Source of the DNA: an uncultured Pseudomonadota bacterium
Lineage (GTDB): Bacteria > Pseudomonadota > Alphaproteobacteria > RF32 > CAG-239
Length of the DNA stretch: 51,408 bases
Assembly: GCA_949292335.1 (NCBI GenBank)
Contig: CASEYY010000019.1
Coordinates: forward strand, 1 to 51,408
Direction: 5' to 3'
Shown here: piece after piece, positions 35,597 through 39,449 of the stretch
How positions within the stretch are numbered: position 1 is the first letter of the stretch
How the letters are laid out: the number at the start of each line of letters is the position of its first letter
Made by a program: the position numbers and the translations under genes
Notes under the pieces: model-generated
Database searches by the model: none
What the model was told of the DNA's origin: nothing
Seen by the model: the letters and a program-made list of their open reading frames with translations, nothing else

Positions 35597-36757
35597 ATGG
35601 CTTATCGTTTTATTTTGAATGAAACAAGTTATCACGGACATGGTGCCGTTAATGAAATTGTAAACGAAATAAAGAATCGAGCATTTAAAAAGGCATTAAT
35701 CGTTACCGATAAAGATTTGGTAAAATTTAAAGTGGTTAAAAAAGTTACCGACCTTTTGGATAAAAACAAATTACCTTATGAAATTTTTGATGAAGTTAAA
35801 GCAAACCCAAGTGTCGATGTGGTTAAAAACGGGGTTAAGGCATTTAAAAAAGCTAAGGCCGATTATATGATTGCCATCGGAGGTGGTTCACCGCAAGATA
35901 CGGCAAAAGGAATCGGAATTATTATCAATAATCCGGAATTTGATGATGTGGTGTCATTAGAAGGGGTGGCTCCGACCAAAAATAAAAGCGTGCCGGTAAT
36001 CGCTGTGGCAACAACCGCCGGAACCGCCGCCGAAACAACCATTAATTATGTAATTACCGATGAGAAAAAACGCAGAAAATTTGTTTGTGTTGATCCTCAT
36101 GATATTCCGGTGGTAGCAATAGTTGATCCGGATATGATGTCTTCAATGCCCAAAGGTTTGACTGCGGCAACCGGTATGGATGCTCTGACTCATGCCATTG
36201 AGGGATATACAACTTTGGGAGCTTGGGAACTTGCTGATACTCTGAATTTGAAAGCGATTGAATTGATCTCTAAAAACTTGCGTAAAGCCGTAGATAATGA
36301 TCCTGACGGTCGTGAAGGTATGGCTTTGGGACAATATATAACCGGTATGGCTTTTTCTAATGTCGGTTTGGGTGTGGTGCATGGAATGGCTCATCCGTTA
36401 TCGGCATTTTATGATACTCCGCATGGGGTGGCAAATGCTGTTTTATTGCCGTATGTTATGGAATTTAATGCTCCGAATACCGGCAAAAAGTTTAAGGAAA
36501 TTGCCAAAGCCATGGGCGTTAAAAATGTTGATGATATGAAGCAGGCCGAATATCGTGAAGCGGCAATAAAGGCGGTTAAAAAGTTGTCAAAGGATGTGGG
36601 TATTCCAAAAACTTTGAAAGAAATCGGTGTTAAAAAAGAAGATTTGGAAGCTTTGGCAGAGGCCGCAATGGCTGATGTTTGCACCGGCGGAAATCCTCGC
36701 CCTTGCACCAAAGAATTGGTCTTAAAAGTTTATGAAAAAGCATATAACGGTAAATAA
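35597..36757 (+). CDS. fucO: Lactaldehyde reductase (iron-containing alcohol dehydrogenase)
   Basis: About 386 aa from ATG 35597, ten bases after AAGGAGG; an open frame back to 35486 lacks such a site. By recall the chain is very similar along its length to E. coli FucO: NAD-binding GGGSPQDTAKGIGI, TTAGTAAETTINYVITDEKKRRKFVCVDPHDIP, the metal-binding region ATGMDALTHAIEGY with Asp and His ligands, then HGMAHPLSAFYDTPHGVANA with further His ligands. It reduces L-lactaldehyde to 1,2-propanediol, ending anaerobic fucose or rhamnose breakdown. No other fucose genes are adjacent. Confidence 0.9.
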   Translation: MAYRFILNETSYHGHGAVNEIVNEIKNRAFKKALIVTDKDLVKFKVVKKVTDLLDKNKLPYEIFDEVKANPSVDVVKNGVKAFKKAKADYMIAIGGGSPQDTAKGIGIIINNPEFDDVVSLEGVAPTKNKSVPVIAVATTAGTAAETTINYVITDEKKRRKFVCVDPHDIPVVAIVDPDMMSSMPKGLTAATGMDALTHAIEGYTTLGAWELADTLNLKAIELISKNLRKAVDNDPDGREGMALGQYITGMAFSNVGLGVVHGMAHPLSAFYDTPHGVANAVLLPYVMEFNAPNTGKKFKEIAKAMGVKNVDDMKQAEYREAAIKAVKKLSKDVGIPKTLKEIGVKKEDLEALAEAAMADVCTGGNPRPCTKELVLKVYEKAYNGK

Positions 36758-36781
36758 AGCATAATTTGTTTTGCTTGAATG

Positions 36782-36812
36782 GCCGCTGCAAGAAAATTGT
36801 GGCGGCTTTTTT
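36782..36812 (+). terminator. fucO terminator
   Basis: GCCGCTGCAA (36782-36791) pairs with TTGTGGCGGC (36797-36806), loop GAAAA, T6 after. Confidence 0.88.
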
Positions 36813-36829
36813 ATAATACAAAAAAAATA

Positions 36830-36857
36830 TTGACATGCTTGATAAATTAGATAGAAT
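36830..36857 (+). promoter_or_regulatory. Near-consensus promoter for the leader ORF
   Basis: TTGACA (36830-36835), 16-bp spacer, TAGAAT (36852-36857). It lies just past the fucO terminator, and transcription should begin near 36864, giving ~24 nt before the leader ATG. Confidence 0.75.
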
Positions 36858-36887
36858 TTTACGAGATGAATAGTTAAAAGGATAAAT

Positions 36888-37013
36888 ATGAACCATTTTG
36901 TGAGCAATAGATTTGATTTGTTTGCAGCTCTGAAGTTAAATCAGGGTGGTTCTTTCGTTATTTCTGCTCAAATTTTGATTATCAACTTGATTTTGTTGAT
37001 TATGGTCCTCTGA
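36888..37013 (+). CDS. 41-aa putative leader peptide rich in Ile/Leu
   Basis: ATG 36888 follows AAAGGA by five bases, so translation is likely. The first ~25 residues are mixed; the last 13 codons (36972-37010) encode I-L-I-I-N-L-I-L-L-I-M-V-L, with five Ile and five Leu codons. The stop (37011-37013) lies inside the left arm of an antiterminator-like hairpin, and a terminator follows. This is the layout of a branched-chain amino-acid attenuator leader. A small hydrophobic membrane peptide or type I toxin is the alternative. Confidence 0.65.
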   Translation: MNHFVSNRFDLFAALKLNQGGSFVISAQILIINLILLIMVL

Positions 37014-37078
37014 GCATTTCAATTACGGTTTAGATAGCTTGGGTGCTTGGAGGATAATAACCGACAAGCTATTTTTTT
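36965..37078 (+). promoter_or_regulatory. Attenuator: alternative pairing region
   Basis: TGCTCA (36965-36970) can pair with TGAGCA (37011-37016). The latter, as part of 37006-37016, can instead pair with 37044-37054 over 11 bp (nine Watson-Crick, two G-U). The terminator stem ATAGCTTG (37034-37041) with CAAGCTAT (37065-37072) has its left arm inside the loop of that antiterminator, so the two folds exclude each other. Stalling at the Ile/Leu codons should favour antitermination; reaching the stop should favour termination. Confidence 0.6.
37034..37078 (+). terminator. Attenuator terminator
   Basis: An 8-bp stem (37034-37041 with 37065-37072) directly followed by T7 (37072-37078). A shorter alternative stem pairs GCTTG (37045-37049) with CAAGC (37065-37069). 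Confidence 0.65.
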
Positions 37079-37117
37079 ATGTGCGTGTGTTAATTGAATA
37101 ATCGAGAATTGAATAAA

Positions 37118-38947
37118 ATGAGTAGATATAGTCAAGCCGTAGTGGCAAAAAAATCGGAATTTTCATATTTAGAAACCGAAAAATCTTTAAGAGAAACTTA
37201 TACCGACGGGAATAAAACCCCGTATAATCCTGATGTATTTCCGTATGCGAAAGAATTTTTGTCTTTGGTATTAAAAAGAGTAACAGATACTTATGCCGCA
37301 GTCGTTGATGAAGGTAATCGTGAGTTGCTGACAAAAGAGCTTGCCGCACAGCTGAAAAGAGATTTTCGTTTTGATTTTTCCGATCACTTGGGGCCGATGA
37401 GACAGCGAGATAAACGCGGGGCTACGGCAAAAGCGGAAGAAAATGATTATAATATGTTTCACTCTTGCTATAAGTTTGTTAATCAGGCTGCAAGGGCAAA
37501 AAGTCTCGGCGAGAAGTTCAACCTCTCTTTAATGTCGGGAAGAGTTAATACCGATAATCAGACCGGTGCCGAGATATGCGATCCGTTTGTTTTTGGGGCT
37601 CCGTTATATTTGTATAGTAAAGCTTACCCGAAAATCGTGGCCATGACTTTGCCGGGGTTCGATACTCAGCAAAAAATAGCACAACTGCAAAATCATGAAA
37701 AAGAAATAAAAAAGGATATGATAGCACAAAAGGCTTTGGCCGCTAAGGAATTGAAGGCACAATGGCATTTTTTAATTAATAAAAAATTTATGCCCGAGGG
37801 TATGAGTTTTAAGGATTTGAGTGAAGATACGGTTAAGAAACTTTCGGAACTTAACAAAGATATGTTAAATGAACTTTCCGCTCAAGTGGATGAGCTGTAT
37901 CAAAAAGATGTTGCCATGCTCAAAAAAGTGACCAAATTAATGAATAAACAGATGTTGTATATGCAGAGAAACAATACTCCGCAGGAGGATTTGGCAGCAC
38001 TACAACTGGCTTCTTTGCACGCAATGCAAGCAAACGATTTGTTAAAAAATTCTTCGGTGGTGCAGGTTAGTATAGAGGCTGAAAAACCAATATATACCTT
38101 AATGGCAGACATATTGGAAAATGATAATTCTTTGACGGCAAAAATATATGATAACCCAAAAACCAGAGAAGTTTTTGAAACTGAAATGAAAAAAATACAT
38201 ACCGTTAAAGAAGGTGAAACTTATGCGGGACTGCTTGATAGGTTGGTGGCGGTAAATAATGATAAAATGCCAACATTTGCAAAAGTGGTGGGAGATGAGT
38301 ATTCGGAGAAGATGAATCGCTTCCAAATGGCAGAGTTGCTTAGAAAAGGCGAGGCAATGCCAAAAGTTTCGTTTATGTTGGCCGTGATGTTATTGGAAAC
38401 CGGTGCCAAAATAGAGGGTGGAAGCTCGCAGATAGTTTATGCCAACAAAATAAAACAGGCATTAGCAAAAGTGTTTGCCGTTGCCGAAAATCAACCGGGA
38501 TTCGTGGGCGAAAATATGAGCAGACGATGGGAAGTAATTGAAAAATTTGATTATCGTACGGCTCAGGCACAGGTGTGGGGAGTTAAAGATAACGGAGATG
38601 TTTTGAGCTATCGCAGCTTAATTGACGGAAGCGTGAAAATAGACGACAATTTACTTGATAAAGTAGCTGATTTGCCGGCAAAAGATGCTTTTGATGCGGC
38701 CGCGGTACATCGTTTTTATAGCTTTGTTACCAAGCAACAGATGAGTGAGGAGGAGTTGGCAGTGCAAAAGCAAAGAGTTAAAAATAATGTGTTGCAGTTT
38801 GCAGACAGAAGCGATTTTACACGTATATTGTCGCCTAACTCACCAGTATATAAAAAGCTTGCCAATATAATCAAAAACGATGCAAATGTGCAGAAAAAAC
38901 AAATCGTATTCTTTAGCTCTTATGCAAGGCAGGCGGTTGTGAGATAG
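37118..38947 (+). CDS. Unrecognised ~609-aa soluble protein downstream of the attenuator
   Basis: The frame is open from TTG 37094, but ATG 37118 (MSRYSQAVVAKKSEF) is the likelier start; neither has a strong Shine-Dalgarno. There is no signal peptide or membrane segment. The N-terminal ~200 residues contain FHSCYKFVNQAARAKSLGEKFN and ICDPFVFGAPLYLYSKAYPKIVAM. The middle (~200-330) is Lys/Glu/Leu-rich and probably coiled coil (KIAQLQNHEKEIKKDM, ELNKDMLNELSAQVDELYQ), and the C-terminal part is helical. I recognise no domain. Expression should depend on readthrough of the upstream attenuator. It ends just before a convergent GtrA-like gene. Confidence 0.7.
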   Translation: MSRYSQAVVAKKSEFSYLETEKSLRETYTDGNKTPYNPDVFPYAKEFLSLVLKRVTDTYAAVVDEGNRELLTKELAAQLKRDFRFDFSDHLGPMRQRDKRGATAKAEENDYNMFHSCYKFVNQAARAKSLGEKFNLSLMSGRVNTDNQTGAEICDPFVFGAPLYLYSKAYPKIVAMTLPGFDTQQKIAQLQNHEKEIKKDMIAQKALAAKELKAQWHFLINKKFMPEGMSFKDLSEDTVKKLSELNKDMLNELSAQVDELYQKDVAMLKKVTKLMNKQMLYMQRNNTPQEDLAALQLASLHAMQANDLLKNSSVVQVSIEAEKPIYTLMADILENDNSLTAKIYDNPKTREVFETEMKKIHTVKEGETYAGLLDRLVAVNNDKMPTFAKVVGDEYSEKMNRFQMAELLRKGEAMPKVSFMLAVMLLETGAKIEGGSSQIVYANKIKQALAKVFAVAENQPGFVGENMSRRWEVIEKFDYRTAQAQVWGVKDNGDVLSYRSLIDGSVKIDDNLLDKVADLPAKDAFDAAAVHRFYSFVTKQQMSEEELAVQKQRVKNNVLQFADRSDFTRILSPNSPVYKKLANIIKNDANVQKKQIVFFSSYARQAVVR

Positions 38948-38954
38948 GAAATTA

Positions 38955-39449
38955 CTAACGGGTAATGTCAAAAATGCTCAAAACCTTTTCCCAAAAACGC
39001 AAGGGTGACGGTTTGCGGAAGGCAAAATGCTTAAACAGCAAGTAGTTGGTTATTAAAAGTAAACCAATGGCTATGGTTTGGGCAAAATACAGGTTAAGCT
39101 GCATATGCTCAATCATAATCTCTAAAAGTCCGGCATTGATGATATAACTTAATGTCCAGATAGCAATACTTTTGAGGTATTCTTTGAGGTGGTTGCCTTG
39201 GGTGTTAAACACCAGTTTTTTATAAGAGTAAAAGGCAATGAACGAAGAGATAAACCACATTAAAAATAGATTTACTTGATAGTGTAAATTGTTAAATAAA
39301 AGGCTTAATGCAATAAAAAGCACATAACGAAACCCCATATTGAGCGAGGCCAGAAGCGTAAAACGAATGCTCTCCGGGGTATCAAACCAGGGGTCGATTA
39401 TGTTCTTTTCTTTAACAAAAACATTTTTAAGCGATGATATTATATTCAT
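38955..39449 (-). CDS. GtrA-like membrane protein
   Basis: 164 aa with four hydrophobic segments (~residues 35-52, 58-74, 92-110, 118-140) and the GtrA-type features RYVLFIALSLLFNN and FIAFYSYKKLVFN. GtrA-family proteins are thought to flip or carry undecaprenyl-linked sugars for surface polysaccharide modification. GGAGAAGG precedes the ATG. No glycosyltransferase partner is nearby, so the substrate is open. Confidence 0.78.
   Translation of the reverse strand: MNIISSLKNVFVKEKNIIDPWFDTPESIRFTLLASLNMGFRYVLFIALSLLFNNLHYQVNLFLMWFISSFIAFYSYKKLVFNTQGNHLKEYLKSIAIWTLSYIINAGLLEIMIEHMQLNLYFAQTIAIGLLLITNYLLFKHFAFRKPSPLRFWEKVLSIFDITR

Follow-up and report, generated by a model that had tools for sequence, protein, structure and literature searches.

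A candidate isoleucine/leucine attenuator ahead of orphan and amide-chemistry genes in alphaproteobacteria that seem to have lost branched-chain amino acid synthesis

In Escherichia coli, leuL and ilvL are the attenuators of the leu and ilv operons. The hallmarks of such proteobacterial attenuators, among them the Caulobacter ilv leader (PMC4117421), are a leader peptide with branched-chain codons and alternative terminator and antiterminator structures. The Staphylococcus aureus ilvD leader has an Ile/Leu-rich leader and a terminator/antiterminator model (PMC5794164). In Actinobacteria, the LEU element is a conserved pseudoknot before leuA whose leucine codon run is complementary to the downstream Shine-Dalgarno (SD) box and for which classical attenuation was considered unlikely (PMC1262725). 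Traits of the first two kinds, and possibly of the third, recur in an element located on the forward strand of contig CASEYY010000019.1 of an uncultured Pseudomonadota bacterium (GenBank assembly GCA_949292335.1; GTDB Alphaproteobacteria, RF32, CAG-239). This stretch of 51,408 nucleotides (nt) is here called the window. The element precedes a gene for an orphan protein of 609 amino acids (aa; 37118-38947).

What the locus appears to offer is a known mechanism in an unexpected place: comparison makes a strong case for a well-conserved isoleucine (Ile)/leucine (Leu) attenuator that, in bacteria which look auxotrophic, is connected to genes for amide chemistry and to unknown ones. We consider it highly probable that the element is a ribosome-mediated attenuator which senses charged tRNA-Ile and tRNA-Leu, has been kept by a lineage seemingly without the synthesis of these amino acids and has been wired to other genes. 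The leader, its codon bias, both of its stems, the gene linkage, the absence of IlvC and LeuA from the genomes searched and the leuA leaders of a second family (f50; G, L and f numbers are our handles for genomes, loci and families) all come from sequence comparison.

Unlike the leu/ilv attenuators, the element in the window's family does not stand before ilv or leu genes, and the genomes searched yielded neither IlvC nor LeuA; it also avoids valine (Val), has no conserved protector stem, often lacks a T-run in relatives and occurs in tandem copies at several loci. The S. aureus ilvD leader differs from the window's in controlling the ilv-leu biosynthesis operon (PMC5794164), whereas the LEU element is set apart by the covarying terminator/antiterminator pair and the different output genes found here. 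The f50 leuA leaders (G496 and relatives) were found with the same model and have their stop codon in a CCTCTAG arm, but unlike the window's leader they have a Leu-dominated run and a biosynthetic target. Control over the biosynthesis of the sensed amino acid, which is not seen in the window, is a property of leu and ilv operons and not of the attenuation mechanism itself. In the open-licence literature, searched by title or abstract, no such leader ahead of these genes was described.

Leader anatomy and stem covariation

A first-pass annotation, made from the letters of the window, had placed a promoter, an AAAGGA site, a 41-codon open reading frame (ORF) with its stop codon inside a stem arm, two stems, a T7 tail and a pause-type pair at this locus, and each of these lies where it had been placed. 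The sigma-70-type promoter (36830-36857), a consensus match only, consists of TTGACA (36830-36835), a 16-nt spacer and TAGAAT (36852-36857) and agrees with 11 of 12 consensus letters; promoter-like sites number three in 36700-37200, against a shuffle mean of 2.1. Behind the ribosome-binding site AAAGGA (36877-36882, called from sequence) follows the leader ORF (36888-37013), which runs from ATG 36888 to TGA 37011-37013, encodes MNHFVSNRFDLFAALKLNQGGSFVISAQILIINLILLIMVL and has counterparts with similar endings in relatives. Its control-codon run, ILIINLILLIMVL (36972-37010), comprises the final 13 codons: five Ile, five Leu, one Met, one Val and one Asn.

The stop codon lies within the 5′ arm of the antiterminator (TCCTCTGAGCA, 37006-37016), which forms 11 pairs, G-U included, with the 3′ arm (TGCTTGGAGGA, 37044-37054). 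The terminator stem, by contrast, joins ATAGCTTG (37034-37041) to CAAGCTAT (37065-37072) in a perfect 8-base-pair (bp) helix with a 23-nt loop and ends in a T7 tail (37072-37078; 3′ arm plus tail, 37065-37078). Because the 3′ arm of the antiterminator sits in the terminator loop while its 5′ partner lies outside it, the two stems are mutually exclusive. The pause-type pair TGCTCA/TGAGCA (36965-36970 with 37011-37016) is present as well. Folding of 36985-37082 gave a z-score of -3.85, with none of 200 dinucleotide shuffles equally stable, and the terminator part (37028-37082) folded alone gave -2.22, with 3 of 200 shuffles equally stable. A terminator scan, which admits loops of 3-8 nt only, does not call the 37034-37072 hairpin.

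Both stems show covariation among relatives. In an alignment of 25 sequences (A5), from which near-duplicates were left out and in which related sequences may share changes, so that cells are not independent events, the antiterminator was paired in 96.8% of 250 cells, with 29 double changes and 5 of 10 pairs changed on both sides. The corresponding figures for the terminator were 90.5% of 200 cells, 43 double changes and 7 of 8 pairs. None of 500 shuffles reached the observed covariation score, for either stem. When the registers were shifted by 1-3 columns, pairing dropped to 34-53%; because the window is where the structures were first recognised, pairing is biased toward the unslid register, but the double changes in other sequences are not. 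Examples of stem pairs are ATAGCTTG/CAAGCTAT, TTGGCTTG/CAAGCCGA, AAAGTGTG/CACACTTT and GCAGCCTA/TAGGCTGC, and, in a second group, CCTCTGAGCA/TGCTTGGAGG, CCTCTAGGCG/CGCTTAGAGG and CCTCTAGATG/CATTTAGAGG. An in-frame ATG leader ends at a stop within the antiterminator arm in 11 of 11 loci in which a stop was sought there, and further loci are alike. Judged from this alignment, the element appears to be a well-supported regulatory RNA, more than chance would give, and the first-pass claim of a branched-chain-type attenuator gains from the covariation of both stems and from the leaders that the same model finds before leuA in another family. The claim of a terminator with a T-run fares less evenly: the window has its T7, but few of the aligned sequences have such a run (see below).

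Covariance models of Rfam returned, for window positions 36700-37250, a single miRNA match far below the cut-off (E-value 0.1) and, for loci L005, L013, L014, L021 and L023, no family except a tRNA in L014; these searches thus gave no known Rfam family for the element, T-box and amino-acid leaders included. Upstream, an iron-alcohol-dehydrogenase gene has its own intrinsic terminator (36781-36807; 11 pairs plus T tail in the scan), for which reason the leader and the 609-aa gene look like a unit of their own. Downstream, the next large frame (38955-39449) reads in the opposite direction.

Sensed amino acids and the genes behind the leader

Which amino acids are sensed can be read from the codons that precede the stop. 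We counted codons -3 to -16 of 24 leaders (336 codons), leaving out the last two codons because they are constrained by the RNA arm, and three of 27 leaders (L009, L053 and L073) as near-duplicates. Ile and Leu together make up 206 of the 336 codons, or 61% (33% Ile, 28% Leu), compared with 16% in the ORFs of the same loci and with 38% where these ORFs look like membrane helices (binomial p 1e-18, each codon treated as independent). Since Val (8/336, 2.4%, vs 12.3%) and Gly (0.6% vs 6.3%) fall far below their shares in membrane-helix-like segments, a membrane helix does not by itself account for the run; Phe (7%) and Ser (9%) also occur in it. Going by the codons, Ile and Leu are the control amino acids and Val is not, so that the Ile/Leu/Val sensing proposed at first would stand for two of the three. 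The leader peptides have similar endings, for instance LIINLILLIMVL, LLISILLLLIMNL and LIINILVLLIINL, and first halves that differ by eye.

We surveyed 153 genomes of the window's family with strict filters, at which weak matches are lost. The element was found in 31 of these at E-values of at most 0.05, with 39 elements in total and one in the window's own genome. A first model had matched in 46 of 153 genomes at E<=1, and its weak matches (E 0.05-1) in 16 genomes beyond those that the second model retains were dropped, as were, as antisense, model matches to the opposite strand of their own element. Also dropped was a two-mismatch pattern match in G125, located in a stretch without a matching leader that looks repeat-like by eye.

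The genes behind the element fall into four classes, with representatives identified by Pfam/NCBIfam and the remainder by sequence likeness. Class A is the orphan of the 609-aa type (12 genomes); class B, an Amidoligase_2 protein with an N-formylglutamate-amidohydrolase-like gene (10 genomes); class C, an ATP-grasp protein (ATPgrasp_YheCD match just under the cut-off) with an AstE/AspA-type deacylase-like gene (8 genomes, in one of which, G019, the contig ends within the first gene); and class D, a GNAT acetyltransferase with an ArgE-like M20 gene (1 genome). One shared site, behind rho and before mnmE, has examples of all four (L010 and L013, A; L061, B; L058, C; L055, D), with rho checked in three loci, mnmE in one and the others assigned by sequence likeness. 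Since all four classes occur at this same site, the leader would stay while the genes behind it change. The site is also occupied in L056, L064 and others, as if modules were swapped behind a fixed switch; the window's own copy is located elsewhere. We read the common thread of the outputs as an amide-forming enzyme plus an amide hydrolase, a reading that for the orphan rests only on its position and on an S66 neighbour.

For the orphan itself, a profile search of the 153 genomes returned 12 full-length homologues, the window's included, and a weak partial match, while a protein search placed the gene in 7 of 135 genomes, counting the window's own and one weak partial match. The element is present upstream of all 12 full-length homologues (model R2), beginning 119-276 nt before the gene as compared by hand, and the stems and the Ile/Leu run, whose loss in relatives the first-pass annotation would have taken as a refutation, are kept ahead of the same gene in 12 of 12. 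The output that it had named, the 609-aa protein, is linked in these 12 cases but is not the sole output, given at least four gene types. The weak relative in G036, 28% identical along a portion of the protein and lacking a Pfam match of weight, was not counted as a homologue, and no element was detectable within the 3.4 kb searched. Counted from a TTG upstream of its start, the 609-aa frame is open for 617 codons. Neither Pfam nor PHROGs gave a match for the protein, NCBIfam and Protein Data Bank (PDB) sequence matches were at chance level only, and no phage, plasmid or viral-contig relative was found. AlphaFold2 on eight close sequences gave a mean pLDDT (predicted local distance difference test) of 49.4 and a pTM (predicted template modelling score) of 0.36, too poor for a fold search, and profile comparison with amidoligases and ATP-grasp proteins showed no similarity, leaving the idea of a divergent member of either unsupported. 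An S66 LD-carboxypeptidase-like gene lies directly behind the orphan in 6 of 12 genomes, the window's not among them. Two S66 peptidases elsewhere in the window's genome were considered as the missing partner and set aside as unlike, at 26-32% identity to the relatives' partner peptidase.

Additional copies occur at a number of loci. Of the first seven class C loci examined, six have a second leader, ending LRSL-stop, between the first leader and the gene; these second leaders are Leu-rich (28 of 72 residues, Ile 7 of 72), and the loci L056, L064, L065, L069, L071 and L072 have two leaders before one operon in this way. Second copies of the element were found in L010, L012, L013 and L061 (E 0.004-0.06), and an additional copy precedes a second ATP-grasp gene in L065 (2806-2900, minus strand), L072 (5512-5608) and L080 (1795-1891). 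In L081, a weak element (E 0.018) in reverse orientation from position 796, with a hydrophobic leader and possibly a second one, precedes an ATP-grasp operon and looks diverged.

Pathway loss and leuA leaders in a second family

IlvC and LeuA were searched for in 44 of the 153 family genomes, which cover 16 of the 31 element-bearing ones and 4 of the 12 with the orphan, a limit that we count against the attenuator reading. IlvC was found in none of the 44, while 20 of 31 genomes from elsewhere in the class and all 14 controls have it. LeuA exceeded the cut-off in none of the 44 either, at a strict cut-off that 9 of 14 controls pass though all 14 match. Because neither enzyme was found in the genomes searched, we infer branched-chain auxotrophy: the window's lineage seems no longer to make branched-chain amino acids. 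A single LeuA-like gene below the family cut-off is present in G041 (contig C1, 72119-73600) and is possibly another enzyme of the superfamily.

Among 385 genomes drawn from the class, the model matched only the window and, outside its family, G496 (E 9.6e-4). Within the family of G496, f50, 9 of 18 genomes match at E<=1, with E near 1e-3 in five, and in eight of the nine matches the element lies directly before leuA (identified by NCBIfam LeuA at 1.2e-249 in G496 and by N-terminal sequence in the others); the G496 element comes after ilvN and ilvC. The ninth, L093 (E 0.99), was dropped, with no leader ORF found and no leuA behind it. An f50 leuA leader reads LLSLLLISL-stop. On the evidence of their sequences, the f50 leuA leaders are separate support for the element type being a leucine attenuator, and the window's copy might descend from a leuA leader. 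The leucine-rich leaders directly before leuA are those of L079 and L086-L092; for L088, pairing is possible between the codons UUUUAUCUCU and the leuA SD region GGAGAUAAAA.

Mechanism, competing explanations and meaning

As an attenuator, the element would work as follows. With plentiful Ile and Leu, the leader ribosome would get to the stop codon and mask the 5′ arm of the antiterminator, upon which the 37034-37041/37065-37072 stem would form and transcription would end at T7. With uncharged Ile- or Leu-tRNA, the ribosome would instead stall in the codon run, the 11-bp antiterminator would form and RNA polymerase would enter the 609-aa gene. In some relatives, the freed codon run could pair with the SD region of the gene behind it, in which case a ribosome stalled on the run would also open that gene to translation. 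The direction of the response, the sensing of tRNA itself and this translational layer are what we infer on top of the comparison.

That last step could also be the main one. In such a switch, the codon run would serve as an anti-SD strand, a stalled ribosome would unmask the start and the 3:4 stem would act by freeing the codon run instead of ending transcription, an account which overlaps the attenuator reading and which we regard as possible at distinctly less than even chances. The LEU element is a precedent, its leucine codons pairing with the SD box of leuA (PMC1262725). Continuous duplexes, G-U allowed, extend over 17 bp in L059, 12 bp in L066 and 11 bp in L067 and L055, with L062 and L063 within the same range of 11-17 bp. 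Over 15 single-element loci, own codon-run/SD pairs were stronger than swapped ones (z -4.98, 0 of 20,000 permutations), an excess that was matched by 1 of 20,000 permutations without the leuA loci and by 17 of 20,000 without class B, while three gene-body controls showed no excess and were flat or reversed. These duplex tests left out tandem loci, L009, L073, L053 and six of the eight leuA loci; the 15-locus test also left out L060, whose contig end spoiled the leader-start control. In the window, the segment UUUUGAUUAU (36973-36982) can form 10 pairs, two of them G-U, with AUAAUCGAGA (37098-37107), a weak SD region before the 609-aa start. The window itself nevertheless speaks for a terminator, with its T7 and perfect 8-bp stem and a leader-SD duplex of its own that is not significant, and L005, L054, L057, L060 and L068 are little above shuffles. 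A translational layer seems likely in some relatives, as the permutations suggest, and could explain why T-runs are scarce despite the conserved 3:4 stem.

Several observations weigh against termination-based attenuation as set out above. Only 7 of 25 sequences, the window among them, have a T-run of at least five behind the terminator stem, and 18 lack one. For the antiterminator, the number of doubly changed pairs was matched by 41 of 500 shuffles and the number of pair types by all 500, the latter lying below the shuffle mean; the terminator figures were 9 and 18 of 500. L067 and L073 make 6 of 10 antiterminator pairs in the A5 register, and seven of the 25 sequences (L061, L064, L065, L068, L069, L071 and L072) make 4 to 6 of 8 terminator pairs. 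The pause-type pair is weakened or lost in most relatives, in an alignment judged by eye, and the 1:2 protector hairpin is missing or unconserved; when no ribosome is on the leader, the fold of lowest energy is the (extended) antiterminator, unlike the textbook protector plus terminator. Such a protector/pause hairpin is not essential for the switch to work. Two weak promoter-like matches (9/12) at 37029-37058 could start transcripts past the leader, in a region whose number of such sites is about the shuffle mean. Phe and Tyr occur within the run of some leaders (L063, L070). Two neighbouring pairing controls were not clean, either, at 569 of 20,000 for leader start versus SD and 1,767 of 20,000 for leader end versus -60 to -29, and the window's own duplex has a z-score of -1.5, with 8% of shuffles as strong and its own SD ranking 7th of 16.

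The remaining alternatives would do away with tRNA sensing, with regulation or with the RNA. TnaC and SpeFL are nascent-peptide arrest switches, and here, too, a hydrophobic peptide might stall the ribosome on a metabolite, not on uncharged tRNA. The conserved and hydrophobic peptide end (mostly L-I-[IM]-[NS]-L-stop) would suit such an arrest, but it falls on the RNA arm, the run switches between Ile and Leu and between synonymous codons, Val and Gly are scarce compared with membrane-helix-like segments, and arrest at the stop would, by the observed geometry, favour the terminator; we hold this very unlikely. A shade less likely still is a relic left from a lost leu operon that no longer regulates. 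The missing IlvC and LeuA and the leuA leaders of the other family are what a relic would leave behind, whereas pairing-keeping double changes in both stems within the auxotrophic family, together with linkage to four gene types and 12 of 12 to the orphan, argue for continued selection. Least likely of all would be a functional hydrophobic small protein with incidental RNA stems: the displayed leaders do have a hydrophobic C-terminus, but their N-terminal halves are unconserved between classes by eye, whereas the RNA stems covary.

For the tRNA-sensing attenuator, which we prefer, the question becomes what it is for. The genes under its control probably encode enzymes that form or cleave the amide bonds of amino acids or peptides, in salvage or storage, an enzymatic role suggested by the gene classes. 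More tentatively, and with the odds still clearly against the whole of it, the locus may belong to a dedicated Ile/Leu-starvation regulon in gut alphaproteobacteria unable to make branched-chain amino acids. Such a regulon would use a leuA-attenuator-type sensor acting at two levels on one strand, its control codons doubling as anti-SD. Its outputs would be interchangeable modules of an amide-forming enzyme and an amide hydrolase, and the 609-aa protein would be an undescribed enzyme family for the salvage or storage of amino-acid conjugates.

Textbook amino-acid attenuators control the synthesis of their amino acid; here, the sensor seems to outlive the pathway and is attached to other genes, which would make it a clean case of regulatory rewiring after auxotrophy. 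It also provides a testable link from leader codons to translational masking outside Actinobacteria. For the family, this regulation singles out unknown enzymes that are likely to matter when isoleucine and leucine are scarce.

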